A stretch of 23,131 nucleotides of DNA from positions 1-23,131 of IMG/VR virus record IMGVR_UViG_3300035698_001902; one strand, 5' to 3'. Numbering within the stretch: the first letter of the stretch is position 1; each line of letters begins with the position of its first letter. Shown in pieces: positions 7,949-23,131 of this stretch. The translations under genes were made by a program, and so were the position numbers. Origin of the DNA: a virus. The notes under the pieces are model-generated. The model did not search any database and was not told the origin of the DNA. It saw only the letters and a program-made list of their open reading frames with translations.

Positions 7949-8296
7949 ATGAGCAATCGAGATTGGCAGACCGTTTCGGCACCAGAAAATCCGTTTAAGA
8001 CGAAGATGCGGATCGCCACGAACGGCGATGTCGAGATCGACTACAACCAAACGAACATGACGGAGATGCTCGACGTGAACGTCGCACTCCAGAACGAAGG
8101 ACGCCGAAGCTCGGCGCTATGGGACGGCAAGAATCACGTCCACGTTGCCACCATCCCTGACGAGCTCATCCACGCATGGCACCGCGAGGGCATCAACATT
8201 TACCGCTGGAATGAGCAGGACCGGGCTCGCGTGATGGCGAAGCTGAACGACCCGGACTTCTCGAAGCTCCGCACAGACGGGGATGCAAGGATCTGA
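7949..8296 (+). CDS. conserved small protein downstream of the coat gene (115 aa)
   Basis: ATG 7949 has GGAAGG at 7938-7943 as ribosome-binding site. The C-terminal half carries VHVATIPDELIHAWHREGINI and ends LNDPDFSKLRTDGDARI. This matches a pattern seen in many podovirus genomes just after the coat gene (VASIP..., then LNDPDN..FRT.PG), a family without an established role. The product is soluble, with no cysteine and no membrane segment. The stop overlaps the next ATG by one base. It could be a minor capsid or head-completion factor. Confidence 0.72.
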   Translation: MSNRDWQTVSAPENPFKTKMRIATNGDVEIDYNQTNMTEMLDVNVALQNEGRRSSALWDGKNHVHVATIPDELIHAWHREGINIYRWNEQDRARVMAKLNDPDFSKLRTDGDARI

Positions 8297-13714: not shown

Positions 13715-16030
13715 ATGGGTGAGATCATCCCCAAGTCGGTCGTTCCTGCCGGCCTCATTGACGACAGCGACAGCGCCGCCGATTGGGAACGTCCGGCTGC
13801 CACCGAGGGATACGAGTCGCAATACGGCGCAGCGACAGTGTCAGGCGTTCGCGATGCGGCATCCGGCTTCGGGTACTTGTCCGATCTAGCGAGGATGCCG
13901 GTCACCAAGGTGAACGCATGGGCGTTCGACCGTGAGCCGGTGCAGCCGCCCTCCGTCGGCGCGCGGATCGAGAAGCAGTTTGACCCATACCTACCCGAGC
14001 CCGGATGGCAGCCGACAACCGGCGGCGAGCAGGGCATGGCTGCTGTTGGCGAGATCGGCCTAGGAATAGCCGCATGGCTGGCAACTGGCGGCGTGGGGCT
14101 TGTCCCGGCACTGCTTAGCGGCGGGATGAAACGAGCCGTCGTTAAGGCCAGCGAGAAGTTCGCGAAGAAGAAGATGGCGCGAATGGCTGCGTCGAACGCG
14201 GCAGGATCTGGCACCGGTCGGTACGCGCAGCACAACATCGACCCGGACAACGGGTGGGCGCAGATGGGTCTACCGATGCTCGCGGGGGTCATCGCCGACC
14301 CGGCATCAGCCGCCTTAATGAGCCAGAGGGCCAGGTCGAGGGCCAAGTCCGCAGCTCGGAGCTCAGCGGGTGCGACGCGGGGCCTGCCTACCGCAACAGC
14401 CAACCGGTTGACTCGATCTATCTCGGGGCGGATTGGTCGCGGCGAATTAACCGACCACGATGTGATTGAGGTAGGGGACCGCCTGAGAGAGACGATGATG
14501 GGACGGGCAGTCCCGATCACTGATTTAGACATTCAGAAAGCGGCTGATCTCGGTCAAGACGTTGTGGTCACGCGCCTGACCTCACAGAAAGCAGTCCAGG
14601 ACGAGATCCTGTTGGTGCTGGCCGAAGCTGGCGAACTGCGTAGCGCGGGCGTCCCTCGGCCTACAACGACGGGATGGGTCGAAGGCGCGGGCGTTCAAGC
14701 CGAGCAGCTAAAGGGCGTATCGCGGAGCCTCTCGTCAGTCGACTCGAACTACGCGAACCGGGCTACGGATGTGAACAAAACCGCGCGGGGTGCGTACGCC
14801 AAGGAAGCGGCAGGCATGATTCCAGAGGGCACGCAGGGCACTCCTGCGGCGATCATGGACTCGTTCGATGAAGCGGCGGAAGCATCTGCGAGAGTGGCGG
14901 GCGACCCGTGGGAGTCGGGCCTAGTCGACGACATTCTGTCCCGCACCCCAGGCGTCCGGCCTTCCGACGTGCGGCGGATCATCAACAACGTGATCCGAGA
15001 CGAGGGCCTATCGGACGTGGCCGTCGATTCGCTCGATGTCGAAGGAATCATGGACCGGGTGGGCCGATACGTCGGCGAAGACGGGAAGGTGTCGGCGAAG
15101 AACTACCGCGACATCGTGCGAAGTCTCGAGGGCGAGCTCGGCGCGAAGGCGGACGTTCCGAAGGAAGTGGCGGTCCGTCTCAAGCGCGTCCACGACCGTC
15201 TGCGCGATCAACTAAAGCGGCGCTTCTCTCCCGACGACGAACGCGACTACACCCGTGCGATGGAGGACTACGCCGAGCACAAGCGAACCTTCGACCCGAA
15301 CATGACACGCGGCGAGAAGATCAAAGCCGATCCGGGCCGGATGCTCGAGAGTCGTGTCGCAAAGGCGCTCGGCGAGGGCAAGACCGCGACAGTCGATGCG
15401 GCCGAAGGGATTGCCACAGTCAAGGAACTGATGAAGATCCAGGGCGAGCCGGAAGCGGTTGCAGCGCAGATCCGCAAGGCTCTAGGCGATGATCCTCAAT
15501 CAATCGCGCAGGTTGAGCATCAACTGTGGCGCACGCTTCTGCGCGATGTTGAAAACGTCGATTCGACGCCGGACTCACTGAAGCGCGCGGGTGTTGCGAA
15601 CGAGGGGCTGCACGACCTTGAGGGCGACGGCAAGGTACTGGAACTCTACCGCGAGATTGCCGGACCCGAGAAAGCAGGGATGGTGGACGACCTCGTCAGG
15701 AGAGGGCGGCAGGCCAGAATTGATGACTCAGGCACGGGGGCTAAAGCGTCCAAGACGGGCTCATACAGCAACATCCAGACATCCAGGGATCTCGCTATCG
15801 GCCTAGCGAACACGGCATTCAAGAACCTACGCATGGTGGTAGGCGATGCGCCTGATGATGTTATTGCTCAGCTTGCCCAGGAGGCGCTCCTTGATCCCGC
15901 TATCGCGTTCGACCTAGTGAATGTCCCGCATGGCGCGGCGTTCAGAGAATGGCACGACCGCTGGTTGCAGCGGATCGTCAAGAACTCGATGCGGGAAGGC
16001 GCAAAGCGCACACCGCCTCCAGAGGAGTAA
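13715..16030 (+). CDS. large internal virion protein, probable ejection protein (771 aa)
   Basis: This is the longest complete gene in the window, standing where T7-like phages have their largest core proteins (gp15/gp16). Residues about 107-137 are a Gly- and Ala-rich hydrophobic segment (GLGIAAWLATGGVGLVPALL), followed by a very basic stretch (139-156, including EKFAKKKMARM). A membrane-active peptide is therefore likely near the N-terminus. The rest is charged and helical, with many Asp, Arg and Glu residues and no cysteine. I see no lytic transglycosylase or peptidase motif, unlike T7 gp16. It probably forms part of the channel that carries DNA across the envelope; that role is inferred. 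Confidence 0.65.
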   Translation: MGEIIPKSVVPAGLIDDSDSAADWERPAATEGYESQYGAATVSGVRDAASGFGYLSDLARMPVTKVNAWAFDREPVQPPSVGARIEKQFDPYLPEPGWQPTTGGEQGMAAVGEIGLGIAAWLATGGVGLVPALLSGGMKRAVVKASEKFAKKKMARMAASNAAGSGTGRYAQHNIDPDNGWAQMGLPMLAGVIADPASAALMSQRARSRAKSAARSSAGATRGLPTATANRLTRSISGRIGRGELTDHDVIEVGDRLRETMMGRAVPITDLDIQKAADLGQDVVVTRLTSQKAVQDEILLVLAEAGELRSAGVPRPTTTGWVEGAGVQAEQLKGVSRSLSSVDSNYANRATDVNKTARGAYAKEAAGMIPEGTQGTPAAIMDSFDEAAEASARVAGDPWESGLVDDILSRTPGVRPSDVRRIINNVIRDEGLSDVAVDSLDVEGIMDRVGRYVGEDGKVSAKNYRDIVRSLEGELGAKADVPKEVAVRLKRVHDRLRDQLKRRFSPDDERDYTRAMEDYAEHKRTFDPNMTRGEKIKADPGRMLESRVAKALGEGKTATVDAAEGIATVKELMKIQGEPEAVAAQIRKALGDDPQSIAQVEHQLWRTLLRDVENVDSTPDSLKRAGVANEGLHDLEGDGKVLELYREIAGPEKAGMVDDLVRRGRQARIDDSGTGAKASKTGSYSNIQTSRDLAIGLANTAFKNLRMVVGDAPDDVIAQLAQEALLDPAIAFDLVNVPHGAAFREWHDRWLQRIVKNSMREGAKRTPPPEE

Positions 16031-16036
16031 GACCGA

Positions 16037-17509
16037 ATGTCCGATTTGAGCGAATGGGGCGTAATCGCCTCCGACAACAACGTCACGTCCCCCGACGGAG
16101 CTCAATCCGGTTGGGTGGGTGCCGACGCTGGTCCTTGGGCGCGTGAGACGATGGCGGCTGTGGCTCGGTGGCACGCAGACCCTTCGTGGGTCAACCCGAT
16201 GAAGTACGGGCTCGACCCCACCGGGAACAAGACGATTGTTCGGTCGACGGGGACGCAGATCACTATCGGCGCACCGACTAACTGGGGATCGGGTACAACG
16301 GACATCTTCAACGTCGGCCGGCTGCTCCGAATCAAGCAGAGCACGGGGAAGTGGCACTACGCATTTATCACCGCTGCGTCTACCTCGACCACTACGCTCA
16401 CTCTGGATCTAAGCCTGATGGGCACAGCGACGCTGACTTCGGGTTGGACATTCGATGATAACGGACTCGAGTTCTTCTCTGGGCAGTCGGCGATAACGAC
16501 GAACCAAGCGGAGCAGGCGGTCAGCCCGATTGCGTTAGGTGGCGTAGGTACGACAACGGAGCGCGATGCTCGTGTGCCTTCCGCGTTGTCTGCGCCTGCG
16601 GGCTTGCTTTGGATGAACACGACGGACAGTCTGATTCAGGTCGTTTCGGGTACGGCAGGGGCTCGGACTTGGAAGAGTGTCGCGCCGCTGGTGAGTGCCT
16701 TCGCCGATAGCGGCGGCGACATGACGCTAACGAGCCCAGCCGGCCAGTCTAAAATCACGCTCATCTCTGACCCCGCAGCCGGCTCCGCGCTGATCATGAA
16801 TGACGGCACCGACGACAAGGGGAAGGTCTTCTACGACCCGGGCGGCAGTCGGATGGTCATGGAGGGCGGCGACATTTCCGCAATCGGGGGTCGCGTCTAC
16901 ATCTACGACAGTGACGGCGAGTTGTACCACCAGCGATGGGTGGGCGGGACACCGACTGACCTAGCTAACATGACACCAGGCCATGCCGAGAACCTGCGAT
17001 TCAGGACCGGCGGCGGTTCGTTGACGGTGATCACGCATCCGGGCGGCGGGAGTCACAGGCTCGTGCATAGCGGCACGGTGCCTGCTGAGATCGGCAACCT
17101 GTTGGAATCGACGAGTTACGACGAGATCGAACTCGACATCGTGGCGGCGATGGAGTGCGAGTTCGTTACGACACCTGCATCGTTGGTCAATATCGGGATC
17201 AATATCTACTTTGGTTCGGGCCTCGACTCAACGCCACCCGCGGACCTATCGACGGGCTACGCAGCTACCGCCAGCTACTACCAAAACGGGGAAGACCCGT
17301 TTATCGCGCATTCCGGTTATTCAAACGGAAAGCTTGCGCTTCGTGTGCCTATCTACGCGGCAAGCATCCCGTCTGGGACGATCGACTCATACGCCATCTC
17401 AGTGCGTCGCGAGGATGGTACGGCCGATCTCAACTACACATGGCTTGCGAATAGCGGCGACGTTTATTCGTCGTTCTCATTCGGCCGGGCATACCGAACG
17501 CTTACTTGA
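16037..17509 (+). CDS. tail fibre / appendage protein with virion-attachment N-terminus
   Basis: ATG 16037 has AGAGGAG at 16021-16027 as ribosome-binding site. Residues 1-58 carry a pattern widespread in phage fibres and appendages: a short N-terminus, then NNVTSPDG, a Gly/Ala linker, ARETMAAVARWHADPSW. This domain is thought to dock fibres on the virion. The remaining 430 residues are beta-rich with many Thr, Ser and Gly. They include RDARVPSALSAPAGLLWMNT in the middle and end with YSSFSFGRAYRTLT, consistent with a shaft and receptor-binding head. There is no signal peptide and a single cysteine, in clear contrast with the four genes that follow. It is the only gene here with a clear attachment domain. 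Confidence 0.8.
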   Translation: MSDLSEWGVIASDNNVTSPDGAQSGWVGADAGPWARETMAAVARWHADPSWVNPMKYGLDPTGNKTIVRSTGTQITIGAPTNWGSGTTDIFNVGRLLRIKQSTGKWHYAFITAASTSTTTLTLDLSLMGTATLTSGWTFDDNGLEFFSGQSAITTNQAEQAVSPIALGGVGTTTERDARVPSALSAPAGLLWMNTTDSLIQVVSGTAGARTWKSVAPLVSAFADSGGDMTLTSPAGQSKITLISDPAAGSALIMNDGTDDKGKVFYDPGGSRMVMEGGDISAIGGRVYIYDSDGELYHQRWVGGTPTDLANMTPGHAENLRFRTGGGSLTVITHPGGGSHRLVHSGTVPAEIGNLLESTSYDEIELDIVAAMECEFVTTPASLVNIGINIYFGSGLDSTPPADLSTGYAATASYYQNGEDPFIAHSGYSNGKLALRVPIYAASIPSGTIDSYAISVRREDGTADLNYTWLANSGDVYSSFSFGRAYRTLT

Positions 17510-17522
17510 TTCACTGATGAAT

Positions 17523-17544
17523 CGGCCAACTAAGGCCGGGAGGG
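17523..17544 (+). promoter_or_regulatory. small hairpin and ribosome-binding site before the exported cassette
   Basis: CGGCC at 17523-17527 pairs with GGCCG at 17534-17538 around a six-base loop. The Shine-Dalgarno sequence GGGAGGG at 17538-17544 follows directly and is eight bases from ATG 17553. The ribosome-binding site decides the start and rules out the in-frame ATG at 17517. The hairpin lacks a T-run and could tune translation or be incidental. Confidence 0.45.
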
Positions 17545-17552
17545 TTATAGAG

Positions 17553-18623
17553 ATGGACAAGTTTTTGAAATATCGGGGCCTGGTGGCGTTGGTGATGGCG
17601 TTGGTCTTCGCTGTGCCGTTGGCGAGCTCGGCGGACATTGATGTCGACAAGACAAAAGAAGAGGGCGTGATTCGGTCGACGATCAACTTTGGGACGGGGG
17701 ATGCCATCAACGACATTTCCCGAGCGATTAACTCGTGCCCAACGATGACGGTCACGTTCTACCAGAACAGCGCGTCTCGGGTGACTCTGTATGAAGCCGA
17801 CCCCGATGACGATACGTTTGCCGAAGTCGAAGCATCGACTTCCGTAGTCGCCTACACCGCGACGTCTACGGTATCGACCACGTTTCACCCCGCAAAGCAG
17901 TTTGTGCGGTTCGTGGTTGATGTTGCGGAGGATGCAGGCTCGAGTATTGCAATCGTCAACTGCATCAACTCGGTGGCAGGAGGTGATATCGGCGTTCTAG
18001 TCGGTGGCGCACTGGGCGTTGCTGATACGGCGAATCCGAACGACTCCGCCAATGACCTAACGTACAGCTCTGCTGTGGCCTGCGCTTCCTCGTGTTTTTT
18101 CCAAGCGTCCTCGACCTACGGCGGCGGCTGGTGGTCTTGGACGGGTAGCGCGTGGTCGCCGATGAATGAGGTTGTCCTGAGGCATCATCGTTTTGAATCG
18201 ACGGCCGCCGCATGGAACGCAGCGACGTACGGGAATTTACAGTGCATCACTTCCGGGATGGGGATTAGCGACGATGATGCAAGTAACGCTTGCAACGATA
18301 ACGAAGGGGATTTCGGTATCGAAAGGACGTATTTCCTCACCCGGTGGATATTTGTCCCATCCCAGGCTAGTGAAGCTACTTCGTCTTGCGATTTGAGGTT
18401 ACTGAACGACTTCTCGCAGACAGCGGTAGCCAACTCAGAGTTTACTGTGGGGGCTACTGCGTTCACTCAGGGGACGCCGATCTATTCTGCGATCAATACC
18501 GAGATGCCAGCCGGGCCTATGTTTTGGCAATTCCGTGACGGGACAAGCTGCGTCACTGCTCCATGTGATTGTGATGGGGGGAACGTAGACGGTAACTTTA
18601 TTTTGATGGGGATACCGGTTTGA
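17553..18623 (+). CDS. exported Cys-rich protein of unknown fold (356 aa), first of four signal-peptide genes
   Basis: From ATG 17553 the product starts MDKFLKYRG, then a hydrophobic core (LVALVMALVFAVPLA), then ASSA before DIDVD, giving a probable signal-peptidase site after residue 27. The mature part has ten cysteines, a strand-rich first half (around TVTFYQNSASRVTLYEAD) and a second half with GGGWWSWTGSAWSPMNE. It ends with a CVTAPCDCDGG cluster and NFILMGIPV. The fold is probably a beta sandwich or jelly roll; I do not recognise the family. The frame is open upstream across the fibre gene as far as 17211, but the ribosome-binding site and signal peptide fix the start. Its location after the fibre suggests a phage-encoded protein released to the periplasm or cell surface. 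The TGA overlaps the next ATG by one base. Confidence 0.75.
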   Translation: MDKFLKYRGLVALVMALVFAVPLASSADIDVDKTKEEGVIRSTINFGTGDAINDISRAINSCPTMTVTFYQNSASRVTLYEADPDDDTFAEVEASTSVVAYTATSTVSTTFHPAKQFVRFVVDVAEDAGSSIAIVNCINSVAGGDIGVLVGGALGVADTANPNDSANDLTYSSAVACASSCFFQASSTYGGGWWSWTGSAWSPMNEVVLRHHRFESTAAAWNAATYGNLQCITSGMGISDDDASNACNDNEGDFGIERTYFLTRWIFVPSQASEATSSCDLRLLNDFSQTAVANSEFTVGATAFTQGTPIYSAINTEMPAGPMFWQFRDGTSCVTAPCDCDGGNVDGNFILMGIPV

Positions 18624-18799
18624 TGTCGAGGCTATCCGTGCTTGTAGCCGCGTTAGTTGTTGCTGCTGTCGTCGCATACGCTTCGTACGTTTCGGCCGAC
18701 TCAAGGTTTAGCGCGAGGTTCGGTCAGTTCACTAAAGGTGAAGCCGCCCCGACAAACGACTGCACGCTGCCCGCCACACTCCCCTGCACTCTCTTATGA
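18623..18799 (+). CDS. tiny exported protein, 58 aa
   Basis: ATG 18623 overlaps the stop of the preceding gene by one base. Residues 3-25 form a textbook signal sequence: RLS, a hydrophobic run (VLVAALVVAAVVAYASY), then VSA before D26. The mature peptide would be only about 33 residues, with SRFSARFGQFTKGE and two cysteines in CTLPATLPC that could form a disulfide. Alternatively the hydrophobic stretch is an uncleaved anchor. There is no strong ribosome-binding site (GGGG at 18608-18610 is about 12 bases away), so translation is probably coupled. The stop TGA is at 18797-18799. Family unknown. Confidence 0.6.
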   Translation: MSRLSVLVAALVVAAVVAYASYVSADSRFSARFGQFTKGEAAPTNDCTLPATLPCTLL

Positions 18800-18802
18800 G
18801 GT
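18798..18802 (+). promoter_or_regulatory. ribosome-binding site deciding the start of the exported beta-helix gene
   Basis: GAGGT at 18798-18802 lies five bases before ATG 18808. The earlier in-frame ATG at 18796 has only pyrimidine-rich sequence before it. The site therefore favours 18808, which also gives a cleaner signal peptide (MRLFSLVILLLL). Confidence 0.55.
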
Positions 18803-18807
18803 TTGAC

Positions 18808-20511
18808 ATGCGATTATTTTCTCTGGTTATCCTGCTCCTACTCGCGGCAGGACCTTCTCAATCAGGCACGATTACTTGGGGTGATGCGGGAAACGGTACT
18901 TACGATAGCGGCGAGAGCTTGACCGCCTCAGACATCGAAGTGATTAAGACCGCAGTCGATGGCAACGACGCCGATGTCGCAACCGCAGAGGGGCGTCTGA
19001 CGACTAACGAGGCTGTGATCGCTGGAGTGGGCGCGGGGATTGTTTATAATAGGAGTTTGATCGACGATAAGGCACTCGGCGAATTCAGGGTACGTGAATA
19101 CGGAAACGGTAACGACCTGGCTGCGATCAACGCTGCGATCGATGCGTGTGAAGCCGCCGAGGGGGGCGTCGTCATACTCCCAGAAAATCAGATAATCATC
19201 GATCTGGACGGGGTGACATCCCCAGCCATACAGCTAACCGGGGTTGACAATACCAACGCCGTGGGAGTCCCGGATTCGTTGATGGGGGTTTGCACTCTTG
19301 AAGGTTTCGGGCCGGGGTATCTTGTGAACAACTCTGGATCATCCGTAGATGTTGGCGGTTCTGAGATCAAGTTCAGCAACCTTGATTTGATGACTGCCAC
19401 GGGCGGACAGCGTGTGATTATAGAAGCGACCGGAGACGGGCAGATCATGCGAAACTTCCACGTTAGCTTGAGCGGAGGGACGCTCACTGACGAGATGGTC
19501 GCCATAAAGTGCATGGAAGGTAAGGGATCTCGTTACTCAGACATAACAGTGAGGACGAGTAACGCTAGCGATACCGGCGTTGGGTTCGAGATGGAGGGGT
19601 GCGAGAAGTCCTCCCTTGTTAATCTGCGCGGAACTCAGTTAGGCGTCGGCCTTCGTTTGAGTAATGGTGTGGGCGAGAACAATAACTCGATATCGGTCAT
19701 TAATTCGACATTCTCCGGAGGCGATAAGGGCATCTACATCGAGGGCGACGCGTCACCGACGAACAATGGATGCGCGGCTAACCTTGAATTGGTGGGGGGG
19801 CACTTGGAAGGCAACGCCACCGCCGGGATTGACCTCGCATCAAACTCGCTATGCACAGTGAATGCCCGGGGAATACTCATAGAGAGTTCGGCGGGTGGTG
19901 TGAATGTCCGTATCAATGCCGCTGCCGCTGCATTTAGAATGTTTGGCGGCCACCTCCAAGGCTCCGCCGATTACGACCTAGAGAGGACTGTTGCACAAGC
20001 GTATGTCACAGGCGACTCCGGGGATCAGCTTGTTGGGCCAGACCTGCTAGTCGGGGTTGACTCTTACAACGATTACAACATCACGGCGGGAACGGTCATT
20101 GCGCAGGATGTTGCATTCAGGGAGTCCACGTCCAACCTTTCAGGGTTGAGGGTGGTCAGATCCGACGGTCCCGAGATCGAAACGGTATCGACGACGACCT
20201 TATCTCCGCCCGCTTCGTCGATGTGGGGCCGAGCGTTCTATTGCACAAACGCGAGTGGCTGTGACATCACGCTACCCCTGGCAGTAGAGGGAATGAGCGC
20301 GTATTTCTACGACCGTAATGGGGGCGGTATCGTCACTCTAGACGCGAACACGGGTGACATATTCGAGCTTGACGGCGCTCTGCTCGACGCTGGAGACGCA
20401 ATCGACTCCCCGGGCGCTCGTGGTAACTTCGTCTCGATCCACGCCTACGATGACACGCACTGGATAGTGCTAGGCAAGGGCGGTACATGGATCGACGGAG
20501 GTGCTAACTGA
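18808..20511 (+). CDS. exported beta-helix protein, tailspike-like (pectate lyase-type fold)
   Basis: The 567-residue product begins with a signal peptide (MRLFSLVILLLLAAG, likely cleavage after SQS, residue 19). Residues about 20-75 look like a phage fibre linker (TITWGDAGNGTYDSGESLTASD, then a helical heptad-like stretch). Residues 95-126 match the start of the pectate-lyase-type spike fold: VREYGNGND, AINAAIDA, GGVVILPE. A long run of beta-helix coils with Asn, Gly and Ser turns follows. From about residue 460 there is a C-terminal beta domain with CDITLPL and the end GTWIDGG, resembling caps on phage spikes. Eight cysteines are present. Such spikes bind or cleave surface polysaccharide; I cannot assign catalytic residues. 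ATG 18796 is an alternative start adding four residues. The unusual point is the signal peptide where a virion anchor would be expected. Confidence 0.78.
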   Translation: MRLFSLVILLLLAAGPSQSGTITWGDAGNGTYDSGESLTASDIEVIKTAVDGNDADVATAEGRLTTNEAVIAGVGAGIVYNRSLIDDKALGEFRVREYGNGNDLAAINAAIDACEAAEGGVVILPENQIIIDLDGVTSPAIQLTGVDNTNAVGVPDSLMGVCTLEGFGPGYLVNNSGSSVDVGGSEIKFSNLDLMTATGGQRVIIEATGDGQIMRNFHVSLSGGTLTDEMVAIKCMEGKGSRYSDITVRTSNASDTGVGFEMEGCEKSSLVNLRGTQLGVGLRLSNGVGENNNSISVINSTFSGGDKGIYIEGDASPTNNGCAANLELVGGHLEGNATAGIDLASNSLCTVNARGILIESSAGGVNVRINAAAAAFRMFGGHLQGSADYDLERTVAQAYVTGDSGDQLVGPDLLVGVDSYNDYNITAGTVIAQDVAFRESTSNLSGLRVVRSDGPEIETVSTTTLSPPASSMWGRAFYCTNASGCDITLPLAVEGMSAYFYDRNGGGIVTLDANTGDIFELDGALLDAGDAIDSPGARGNFVSIHAYDDTHWIVLGKGGTWIDGGAN

Positions 20512-23131
20512 TGCTACGCAAGATCTCCGCAACGATCCTGGCATCACTCCTGCTAACCGCGCCTACGCTTGCCAGTCTGCCTATGTACCAGCTTGCGGGG
20601 AATGGGGGTAGCGGTGGTGCTGCCGGGTTCATCAACACCGCAGGGCTCTATACAAACGAAGCAGCCCTAGACCGATTCGATGCGCTCGGCTCCGCAGACG
20701 AAACTAGCCTACTAGGCGGGAGTCACGCGGGCGAGGTGGACACGGAGCCAGAGTGGGACGCTGTCCATCTTATAATCGCAGAAGAGTATGTCGGAGACAG
20801 CAGCACTTGCCGTCCTAACTCACTAGCCGCATCGCACGTTGATGTGTTAGCGGATAAATACGACCTGCCAGAACAAGCAGCCTCGCTCTACTCGCTAGCC
20901 CTCGCAGGATCGATAACTAACTCCGATGCCTACTTTGCTATTGCCCGCACGCACCTTCTCGAGCTAACGGACGACACTACCGGCATCACATTCGACATTG
21001 CAGGGGTTGGTACAGGCGGGGTGGGTGCAGAGCAATGCGCCCTGGACCTTGCAACCGCGGTTCCTTGGTTCATAGAGACGGCACTGAGGCTAGAAGACGA
21101 ATACGCTTCTTGGACGTATGACGATCGTCTTCAGCTCGCGACTTGGCTATCGACTAATTTTCCCTTAGTGCACTGGGCGACTACACGGAAGAACAACTGG
21201 GGACCGGCCGGTATGAGCGCCGCACTTACTATCGCCTACTACGCAGACGGCCCGATTACTAGCCTCACTTACTTCGATGGGTCTACGACAACCCCCGCGA
21301 ATTACGTATCGACGCAGATCGATTTGGAGCTCGCCGAGTGGGTGTCCGATTCCATCGGTGATGAACTTGATTCGACATGCACTGCAACAGTGTGGGGTGT
21401 TCAGACAGGGGGCGCGCTTCCCGACGAAGTTCGCCGATCTGACGGCACGAACGACGTAGCCAACTGCAACGAGACAGACCTGGAATTTGCTGACTGTCTG
21501 TCTGGCGGCGGCCCTTATACGTCAGGTTGCGGAGGATCAAGCGGCGCTGTCTTCTATTCCCAGAAGTCAACGCAGCTCTTATCTAGGTTGTGCGAGGCCC
21601 TCTACTCGATCGACCCATCGAACCCAGACCGTTGTTATGAGCTAGTCGCAACCGCGAGTGGGAACGAGACGCTGTACGACATGATTGTCGGGAGCACGAC
21701 CATCGAGGTGAGCTCTTCTGGTCTGTTCCAGGATGTCTGGACGACTGATACTACGCAGGGCTCTCGGTGGTTGGCGGGTCAATACTATGGCGCGAACAAG
21801 TCCGGCGTCGATTCGTGTATCACTGATGCCCTTGACGATGGATCGGTATTCATTGAGGGCGGTAACGATGTCCCCTATGCCCGCATAACACATGCTGATG
21901 GCGCGGCCTATGCTGCTACTCCGTCGGCTTGCGGAGCATCGACGATCACCGCTGCCTTCACCGCGACTTGCTACACCGACCCATGCTTACCAGACTCGGC
22001 AGTTCATTTTGACGCGAGGGCCACTTCTGACACCGCGTTCACCCGTGAGTTTCACAGCATCAAGTACGAGTGGGACTTTGGAGATTCGGGGAAAGGCAAC
22101 TGGACTACAGGCGCCGCTCAGCGCGATTCAGGATGGGACAAGAACTACGACATCGGGGCTCTCGCCGCGCATAGCTATTCGACTTCAGGCGTGAAGACGA
22201 TCACGCTCACGGTGACGAATGCGAACGGTGACACCGACACTCACGAGGAAACCGTGACGGTCGTCGTTGAGGACGATCAGTTCCCAACGACTGCGACGAT
22301 CTGTATCAGCAACGACACCGACCACACTGGTTGCCCCGCCGACGCACTGGAAGTGGATAGCGTGTCGGACTTTGATGCAGCTTTGACAGCAGCTTCGCCT
22401 AACGGGTGCGACGCGGACGCGCTTCACGTCCGGTGCCTATTCAAGGGCGGTGATTCGTTCGCCAGCGGTAGTGCTGCAACCCTCTTTAATACATCCAGAG
22501 CTACTGGGTCCACGTCTGGCATCGTCGGCAGCTACGGAACCGGGGACTTCATCATTACCCAGGCCGCAGGGCTCAATACGGGAATCATCAACCTCGGAAG
22601 CGAGTGGGTGATGCGAGACATGACCGTCACTGTTGCGGGATGCACGGCAGGCGCGGGGAACTGCACCGGCAAGCTCGTATTCGCTGGAGAGAACAGCGGC
22701 GGCACGCTCACCAACTTCTACAACACAGCGAACAGGATCACGGCGACTGGCGTAGCCCATAAGATTGTGGGGGCGGACGGGCAGGGCACGATACCGTTCA
22801 TGGCTTTGGTCGATTCAGACATCACACGCGGCGCGGTCGGATGCGGCGGGAGTGGGTCGCTCGCCTTTTGGAATGGCCGAGGCGTCATACTTCTAGGCAC
22901 GAAGCTAGCGAACAACAAATGCGCGTCGGGCGTCTTCCGCTCGGCTCACTTCGCCACGCAAACTTATTGGACAGATCTTGTCCTCTCTCACAACAACACG
23001 TCCGGCGATACCGAGTCTATGGGCACGTTTAGGCTTCGCGGGAAGATGCGAGGGGCGGTATTGGTCGATAACGACATCCTCTACGAAGCCCCGGATAGTG
23101 GCGGCGAGATCATCAACATGAGGGTCGAGCA
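20511..23131 (+). CDS. very large exported protein: alginate-lyase-like domain, PKD domain, beta-helix (3' end outside window)
   Basis: From ATG 20511 (overlapping the previous TGA by one base, with GGAGG at 20497-20501) the frame is open without a stop to the window end: 873 complete codons. Residues 1-21 are a signal peptide (MLRKISATILASLLL, cleavage near TLA). Residues about 30-420 resemble the alpha/alpha-toroid fold of alginate lyases: a helical region with ALDLATAVPWFIETALRLEDEY, then RKNNWGPAGMSAAL (N228-N229-W230) and LPDEVRRSDG (303-312). Residues about 480-590 are a PKD domain with YEWDFGD (519-525) and AHSYSTSGVKTITLTVTN (553-570). From about 590 a right-handed beta-helix continues to the edge. 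About 20 cysteines are present, unusual for a cytoplasmic tail protein. The catalytic His usual in alginate lyases is replaced by Trp in the NNW motif, so activity is uncertain. It probably acts on extracellular polysaccharide. Confidence 0.82.
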   Translation, partial: MLRKISATILASLLLTAPTLASLPMYQLAGNGGSGGAAGFINTAGLYTNEAALDRFDALGSADETSLLGGSHAGEVDTEPEWDAVHLIIAEEYVGDSSTCRPNSLAASHVDVLADKYDLPEQAASLYSLALAGSITNSDAYFAIARTHLLELTDDTTGITFDIAGVGTGGVGAEQCALDLATAVPWFIETALRLEDEYASWTYDDRLQLATWLSTNFPLVHWATTRKNNWGPAGMSAALTIAYYADGPITSLTYFDGSTTTPANYVSTQIDLELAEWVSDSIGDELDSTCTATVWGVQTGGALPDEVRRSDGTNDVANCNETDLEFADCLSGGGPYTSGCGGSSGAVFYSQKSTQLLSRLCEALYSIDPSNPDRCYELVATASGNETLYDMIVGSTTIEVSSSGLFQDVWTTDTTQGSRWLAGQYYGANKSGVDSCITDALDDGSVFIEGGNDVPYARITHADGAAYAATPSACGASTITAAFTATCYTDPCLPDSAVHFDARATSDTAFTREFHSIKYEWDFGDSGKGNWTTGAAQRDSGWDKNYDIGALAAHSYSTSGVKTITLTVTNANGDTDTHEETVTVVVEDDQFPTTATICISNDTDHTGCPADALEVDSVSDFDAALTAASPNGCDADALHVRCLFKGGDSFASGSAATLFNTSRATGSTSGIVGSYGTGDFIITQAAGLNTGIINLGSEWVMRDMTVTVAGCTAGAGNCTGKLVFAGENSGGTLTNFYNTANRITATGVAHKIVGADGQGTIPFMALVDSDITRGAVGCGGSGSLAFWNGRGVILLGTKLANNKCASGVFRSAHFATQTYWTDLVLSHNNTSGDTESMGTFRLRGKMRGAVLVDNDILYEAPDSGGEIINMRVE

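Follow-up and report, generated by a model that had tools for sequence, protein, structure and literature searches.

Four genes with predicted Sec signal peptides follow the tail fibre gene in a podovirus-type genome fragment

The 23,131-base window analyzed here is the entire IMG/VR virus record IMGVR_UViG_3300035698_001902, a genome fragment whose plus strand carries a structural block of the podovirus type, with terminase (PF03237), an SU10-type portal, phage structural genes, and a fibre gene, followed by a row of four genes, A to D (the cassette), all of which appear to code for proteins exported by the Sec pathway. The podovirus setting proposed in a preliminary description of this DNA is borne out by a Pfam profile search, in which the portal matches the SU10-type family PF23899 (E=5e-161). 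The tail fibre or adaptor gene (16037..17509, + strand) directly precedes the cassette, as judged from homologue searches and alignment, and its N-terminal ~150 residues are conserved in nine related records (E 2.7e-50 to 6e-12). Its stop codon at 17509 is followed by a gap of 43 bases and then by gene A (17553..18623), coding for a protein of 356 amino acids with a Sec signal peptide, 10 Cys, and no known domain. Gene B (18623..18799) codes for only 58 amino acids, with a signal peptide or N-terminal anchor and a mature part of 33 residues with 2 Cys. Gene C (18796..20511; 571 amino acids, or 567 from a second ATG at 18808) combines a signal peptide with 8 Cys and a weak match to PF12708, indicative of a tailspike-like beta-helix, and gene D (20511..23131), which runs off the contig after at least 873 codons, combines a signal peptide with 20 Cys and a weak PKD match at residues ~496-584. 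The genes form an overlapping row on the plus strand, and the open reading frames agree with the coordinates and overlaps described before, namely one base at A/B and at C/D and four bases (ATGA) at B/C. A search for promoters and terminators between the end of the fibre gene and the start of D yielded none above chance, and a short hairpin before gene A was not significant (z -1.7).

The signal peptides were assigned from a score, a strict rule, and reading of the sequence. They are predicted at 17553..17633 in A (27 residues, SSA/D, the slash marking cleavage; MDKFLKYRGLVALVMALVFAVPLASSA/DID), 18623..18697 in B (25 residues, VSA/D; MSRLSVLVAALVVAAVVAYASYVSA/DSR), 18796..18864 in C (SQS/G; MRLFSLVILLLLAAGPSQS/GTI; 23 residues from the first ATG and 19 from the second), and 20511..20573 in D (21 residues, TLA/S; MLRKISATILASLLLTAPTLA/SLP), all on the plus strand. 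The cleavage sites suggested earlier, after residues 27, 25, 19, and 21, were thus matched, with that of C counted from the second ATG. The score is a home-made screen, not a reference method, and combines the charge of the n-region, the hydrophobic core, and a cleavage matrix, with 38 signal peptides of E. coli as positive set. Applied to a 50-kb stretch of E. coli K-12 as control, it ranked YbgS and ModA within the top three and gave no cytoplasmic protein more than 3.6. Values of 13.2, 9.3, 8.7, and 4.8 were obtained for A, B, C, and D, compared to 2.4 for the highest-scoring upstream gene of the window; the fibre, too, appears to lack a signal peptide by this measure. Because the score at a threshold of 4.5 also flagged several Ala-rich non-secreted proteins of related phages, a stricter rule was adopted, which demands a basic start, an uncharged core of nine residues, small residues at -3 and -1, and no second membrane segment. 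This rule was passed by all four cassette genes, by none of the upstream genes of the window, by 2 of the 322 structural genes lying upstream in 34 related records, and by 29 of the 38 peptides of the positive set. Given the rate of 2 in 322, four passing genes in a row are not explained by chance, and since neither C nor D has an earlier in-frame start codon, their signals cannot be masked by a longer N-terminus. The earlier claim that all four proteins begin with a signal peptide is therefore upheld, and their predicted export by the Sec system is well supported by the sequence.

Relatives were collected by an alignment-based portal search, which delineated a clade at 48-72% identity, and the DNA behind the fibre gene was read in the nine records carrying it. 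A single fibre alignment covering the seven groups proved too diverse for searching, while split alignments worked. Two patterns of gene order became apparent. In close relatives of the window (G006, G004, G005, G016, and also L133), the fibre gene is directly followed by small lysis-type genes, whereas in a sister subclade (portal ~50% identical), a shorter fibre gene is followed by genes for signal-peptide proteins and then by lysis genes. At least three distinct phages of this subclade encode one to three Cys-rich signal-peptide proteins each, with sizes of ~100-1400 amino acids: G001/G008 contain a single protein of 1323 amino acids (cleavage site FPASA/Q), G011/G013 a row of three with 1404, 352, and 106 amino acids (LPASA/Q), the third of which scores 12.5 but fails the strict rule, G007 at least one after the fibre (AGPALA/D), and L129 two clear signal proteins (SVPASA/D) enclosing one with a hydrophobic N-terminus. 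Conservation of the gene order, which the preliminary description had proposed to look for in related contigs, thus extends to exported cassettes at the same place in the sister subclade, but not to the closest relatives. In a set of 33 records, most of them more distant, and two annotated phages, a gene at the fibre position passed the strict rule only in L004, which is identical to contig G001. Downstream of the sister-subclade cassettes lie genes for endolysin-like proteins (M15 or C92, by weak profile matches), holin-like genes, and a lipoprotein gene. The endolysin type behind the exported cassette has apparently been swapped, as L129 codes for a C92-type permuted papain amidase at 15806-16393 (weak, E=0.009) and an M15-like peptidase is found elsewhere in the clade.

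A portal tree, for which L094 was assumed to share the cassette label of a different contig from its sample, strongly supports both subclades and groups the window with the cassette-less L092 and L087. At least two changes are required on this tree, so either the window acquired its cassette on its own or its neighbours lost theirs. Because no homology is detectable between the proteins of the window and those of the sister-subclade cassettes, a separate gain is favoured. As a further observation on this lineage, a small gene at 7949-8296 of the window, located between capsid and head-tail genes, is restricted to the close clade (L002, L004, and L005) and is a candidate marker gene for it.

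The cassette genes show a GC content at third codon positions (GC3) of 0.61-0.64, compared to 0.64-0.82 (mostly 0.69-0.78) in the upstream genes, which suggests a later acquisition or a relaxed composition of fibre-type genes. Such a step might also arise if genes for bacterial secreted proteins had been fused to a phage contig during assembly at ~17,510-17,552, but the same gene order recurs in several contigs of related phages, some of them from other samples, the four genes overlap and run on the same strand, and the cassette genes of L129 are likewise lower in GC3. An assembly artefact is therefore regarded as extremely improbable.

The exported proteins are also unusual in composition, since Cys makes up 2.6% of the residues in 11 cassette proteins from four phage groups, compared to 0.42% in the structural genes of the same phages. 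An even number of Cys is present in 10 of the 11 mature chains, although this parity is only modest evidence because D is truncated and the homologues do not count as independent. The parity fits folding in an oxidising compartment, and the enrichment bears on the question whether the hydrophobic N-termini may instead be tail-docking or membrane-anchoring segments. Such a role would agree with the small size of B and its strong hydrophobic stretch and with the hydrophobic N-terminus of L129_2, which has no good cleavage site (score -0.4). However, the succession of basic, hydrophobic, and small-x-small segments is present in nearly all of the proteins, the cleavage motifs are alike across divergent phages, and the mature parts are enriched in Cys, which makes docking or anchoring segments improbable.

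As to the domains encoded in the window, the preliminary description had considered two of the proteins to be of the spike or lyase type, which is plausible, but the profile matches behind it are weak. C matches the pectate-lyase-like model PF12708 with E=0.046 and 14 bits, and D the PKD model PF18911 with E=1.2e-4 and 22.5 bits, both under the curated Pfam cut-off of 27. Moreover, C bears a signal peptide, unlike the beta-helix tailspikes assembled in the cytoplasm, and yielded no sequence match in the PDB. D matches PDB chain 4l9d at E=0.009, no profile matched its N-terminal 480 residues, and modelling it with AlphaFold from the single sequence reached a pLDDT of 35, too low for use. Neither PHROGs nor NCBIfam contained a profile with a usable match to A, B, C, or D, and homologue searches with A, C, and D among viral contigs and INPHARED phages returned nothing useful; for D, two weak matches to the PKD region were recorded in viral contigs, and a Jannaschia plasmid gave a further weak match. 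None of the predicted cleavage sites of A to D contains a lipobox Cys, and A, C, and D range from 356 to more than 873 amino acids. Elsewhere in the window, a gene for a GDSL-type lipase or esterase lacking a signal peptide (340-978; PF13472, E=2.6e-19) is located upstream of the terminase genes and possibly represents a further carbohydrate-modifying enzyme.

More can be said about the architecture of the relatives' exported proteins. Conservation in the sister subclade extends over the signal peptide and the next 120 residues, including four invariant Cys, while the remainder diverges; L119_1 and L129_1, for example, are 65-72% identical in the first 160 columns and ~20% identical thereafter. 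A conserved N-terminal part followed by a divergent rest is the pattern of receptor-binding protein evolution. In addition, L123_1 contains tail-fibre repeats (phrog_972, 5e-7; phrog_910, 2e-6), L129_2 a lectin domain (PF13385, 1.8e-6), and several of the relatives' exported proteins Thr-Pro linkers. Exported proteins with very long Thr-Pro repeat linkers (TPTATPT...) are encoded on the reverse strands of L121 (1143-5114) and L123 (5696-6754), and this composition, which is usual for secreted bacterial proteins, is a possible clue to the host. The N-domain of the relatives was modelled as a beta-sandwich (pLDDT 77.6), for which YomS of phage SP-beta was the best solved match (Z 10.4, root-mean-square deviation 2.6, 96 residues aligned), clearly above the lower rows; phage turret and cement proteins came next with Z ~7, within the background. 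A Foldseek search with the N-domain matched no PDB entry at E<=0.001, and its first rows (cysteine dioxygenase and picornavirus capsids) reflect generic beta-sandwich similarity and were not used. The modelled likeness to YomS and the related XepA is taken as a lead, not as a claim of membership.

The main functional rival to a direct action on glycans is receptor masking, as by Llp of phage T5: exported fibre-like proteins would cover the receptor that the phage itself uses, be it on the infected cell or on debris, and thereby block superinfection and loss of progeny. The position of the cassette beside the fibre gene matches that of llp, which is adjacent to and downstream of the pb5 gene (PMC9586334), and the tail-fibre repeats of L123_1 and the variable C-terminal parts behind a conserved N-terminal part in the relatives point in the same direction. 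Nevertheless, masking seems unlikely, as Llp and Cor are small lipoproteins while the cassette proteins are large, lack a lipobox, and occur several per phage, and as a protein of the PKD or beta-helix type would not be expected in this role.

Alternatively, the cassette may code for exported spikes that acquire disulfides while folding in the periplasm and are added to the tail at lysis or later. The modular architecture of the relatives' proteins, resembling receptor-binding proteins, and the similarity of their modelled N-domain to YomS would be in line with this, but the fibres preceding the cassettes of L121 and L129 already have their own Collar domain (PF07484, 1e-7), which makes a virion attachment after export less likely, and the virion does not contain XepA, an exported protein related to YomS (PMC6834076). 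The cassette proteins are accordingly rather unlikely to join the virion in this way. That a lineage of tailed phages should export part of its receptor-binding apparatus via Sec, mature it by disulfides in the periplasm, and attach it to the virion only at or after lysis is an equally improbable proposition, and if true, it would break the rule of a wholly cytoplasmic tail assembly in tailed phages. We know of no tailed phage which assembles spikes by export and docking from outside.

We therefore lean towards the view that A to D are free, Sec-exported, disulfide-stabilised proteins, derived from fibres, which bind or cut glycans outside the cytoplasm. What the sequences show is the order of the genes, their signal peptides, the enrichment in Cys, the recurrence of the arrangement in relatives, and the fibre repeats and lectin domain found there; where the cassette proteins go and what they do, including the actual export, the disulfides, the action on glycans, and the benefit at release, is what we infer from these features. 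The stripping of polysaccharide, an action on neighbouring cells, and the joining of virions outside the cytoplasm, as put forward in the preliminary description, are all candidate roles. The four genes would represent one module, co-transcribed with the structural genes, whose products are derived from, or built like, tail fibres or spikes. Their precursors would cross the inner membrane via SecYEG and lose their signal peptides to signal peptidase I, and the mature proteins would fold in the periplasm, with their Cys pairing into disulfides. They may act there, or outside the cell following lysis or passage of the outer membrane, by binding or cutting a polysaccharide of the host or its community, with C as a beta-helix spike-like protein and D as a multi-domain protein containing PKD. 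Progeny would thus be helped out of the cell and its matrix, and the cassette proteins would supplement the virion's own fibre, encoded just upstream with no signal peptide. Several observations weigh against this view. The export calls derive from a home-made score and a rule applied to sequences, the score of D is modest, and the N-terminus of B may be a membrane anchor. A, C, and D had no homologues beyond the weak PKD-region matches in the searches described, and the closest relatives do not contain the cassette. A resemblance between the N-domain of A and that of the relatives' exported proteins, seen by eye from a shared Cys pair, received 0.3% from hhalign and is not claimed, and when the portal and the exported N-domain were searched against genome contigs to find the host, no relative was revealed. 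Finally, catalytic residues could not be identified in A to D, so an enzymatic action is put forward only conditionally.

Exported phage proteins encoded beside receptor-binding genes are known, as represented by T5 Llp and lambda Lom, whereas a multi-gene cassette of exported fibre-like proteins was not found reported: a full-text literature search, with most subscription journals outside its coverage, returned no description of a multi-gene, signal-peptide-bearing, fibre-like cassette in tailed phages. In tailed phages, a fibre-like protein is assumed to be made in the cytoplasm as a part of the virion. If the preferred reading of free exported proteins is true, some phages deploy glycan-recognition tools as free extracellular proteins, and caution is advised against labelling every fibre- or spike-like gene as coding for a receptor-binding protein of the virion. 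Among the known systems, the beta-helix tailspikes and depolymerases of podoviruses resemble C in their position after the fibre and in the weak pectate-lyase-like match, but tailspikes assemble in the cytoplasm and have no signal peptides. Lys44 of phage fOg44 and the signal-arrest-release (SAR) endolysins are late phage proteins using the Sec pathway of the host (PMC6116005), but exported endolysins are peptidoglycan hydrolases, and the endolysin-like genes of the relatives are separate and located downstream of the cassette. Lom of phage lambda is a signal-peptide protein encoded between the genes for tail tip and side fibre (PMC12309495); it is an outer-membrane beta-barrel of lysogens, whereas no barrel family was recognised in the cassette. 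XepA of PBSX is exported as the phage develops and does not become part of the virion, and YomS resembles part of XepA (PMC6834076). Both are beta-sandwich phage proteins, and YomS is the best fold match to the modelled N-domain of the relatives; however, they are small and have no fibre-like C-terminal regions, no sequence similarity was shown, and the fold match concerns the relatives and not A of the window. A parallel in position is Llp of T5, an exported protein whose gene directly follows that of the receptor-binding protein pb5 (PMC9586334). As is predicted for the cassette proteins of the window, Llp and T1-type Cor, which act in superinfection exclusion, are exported and encoded after a receptor-binding gene, but they are small lipoproteins encoded by single genes, whereas the cassettes appear to code for several large non-lipidated proteins, some of them with features of fibres, lectins, or PKD domains.

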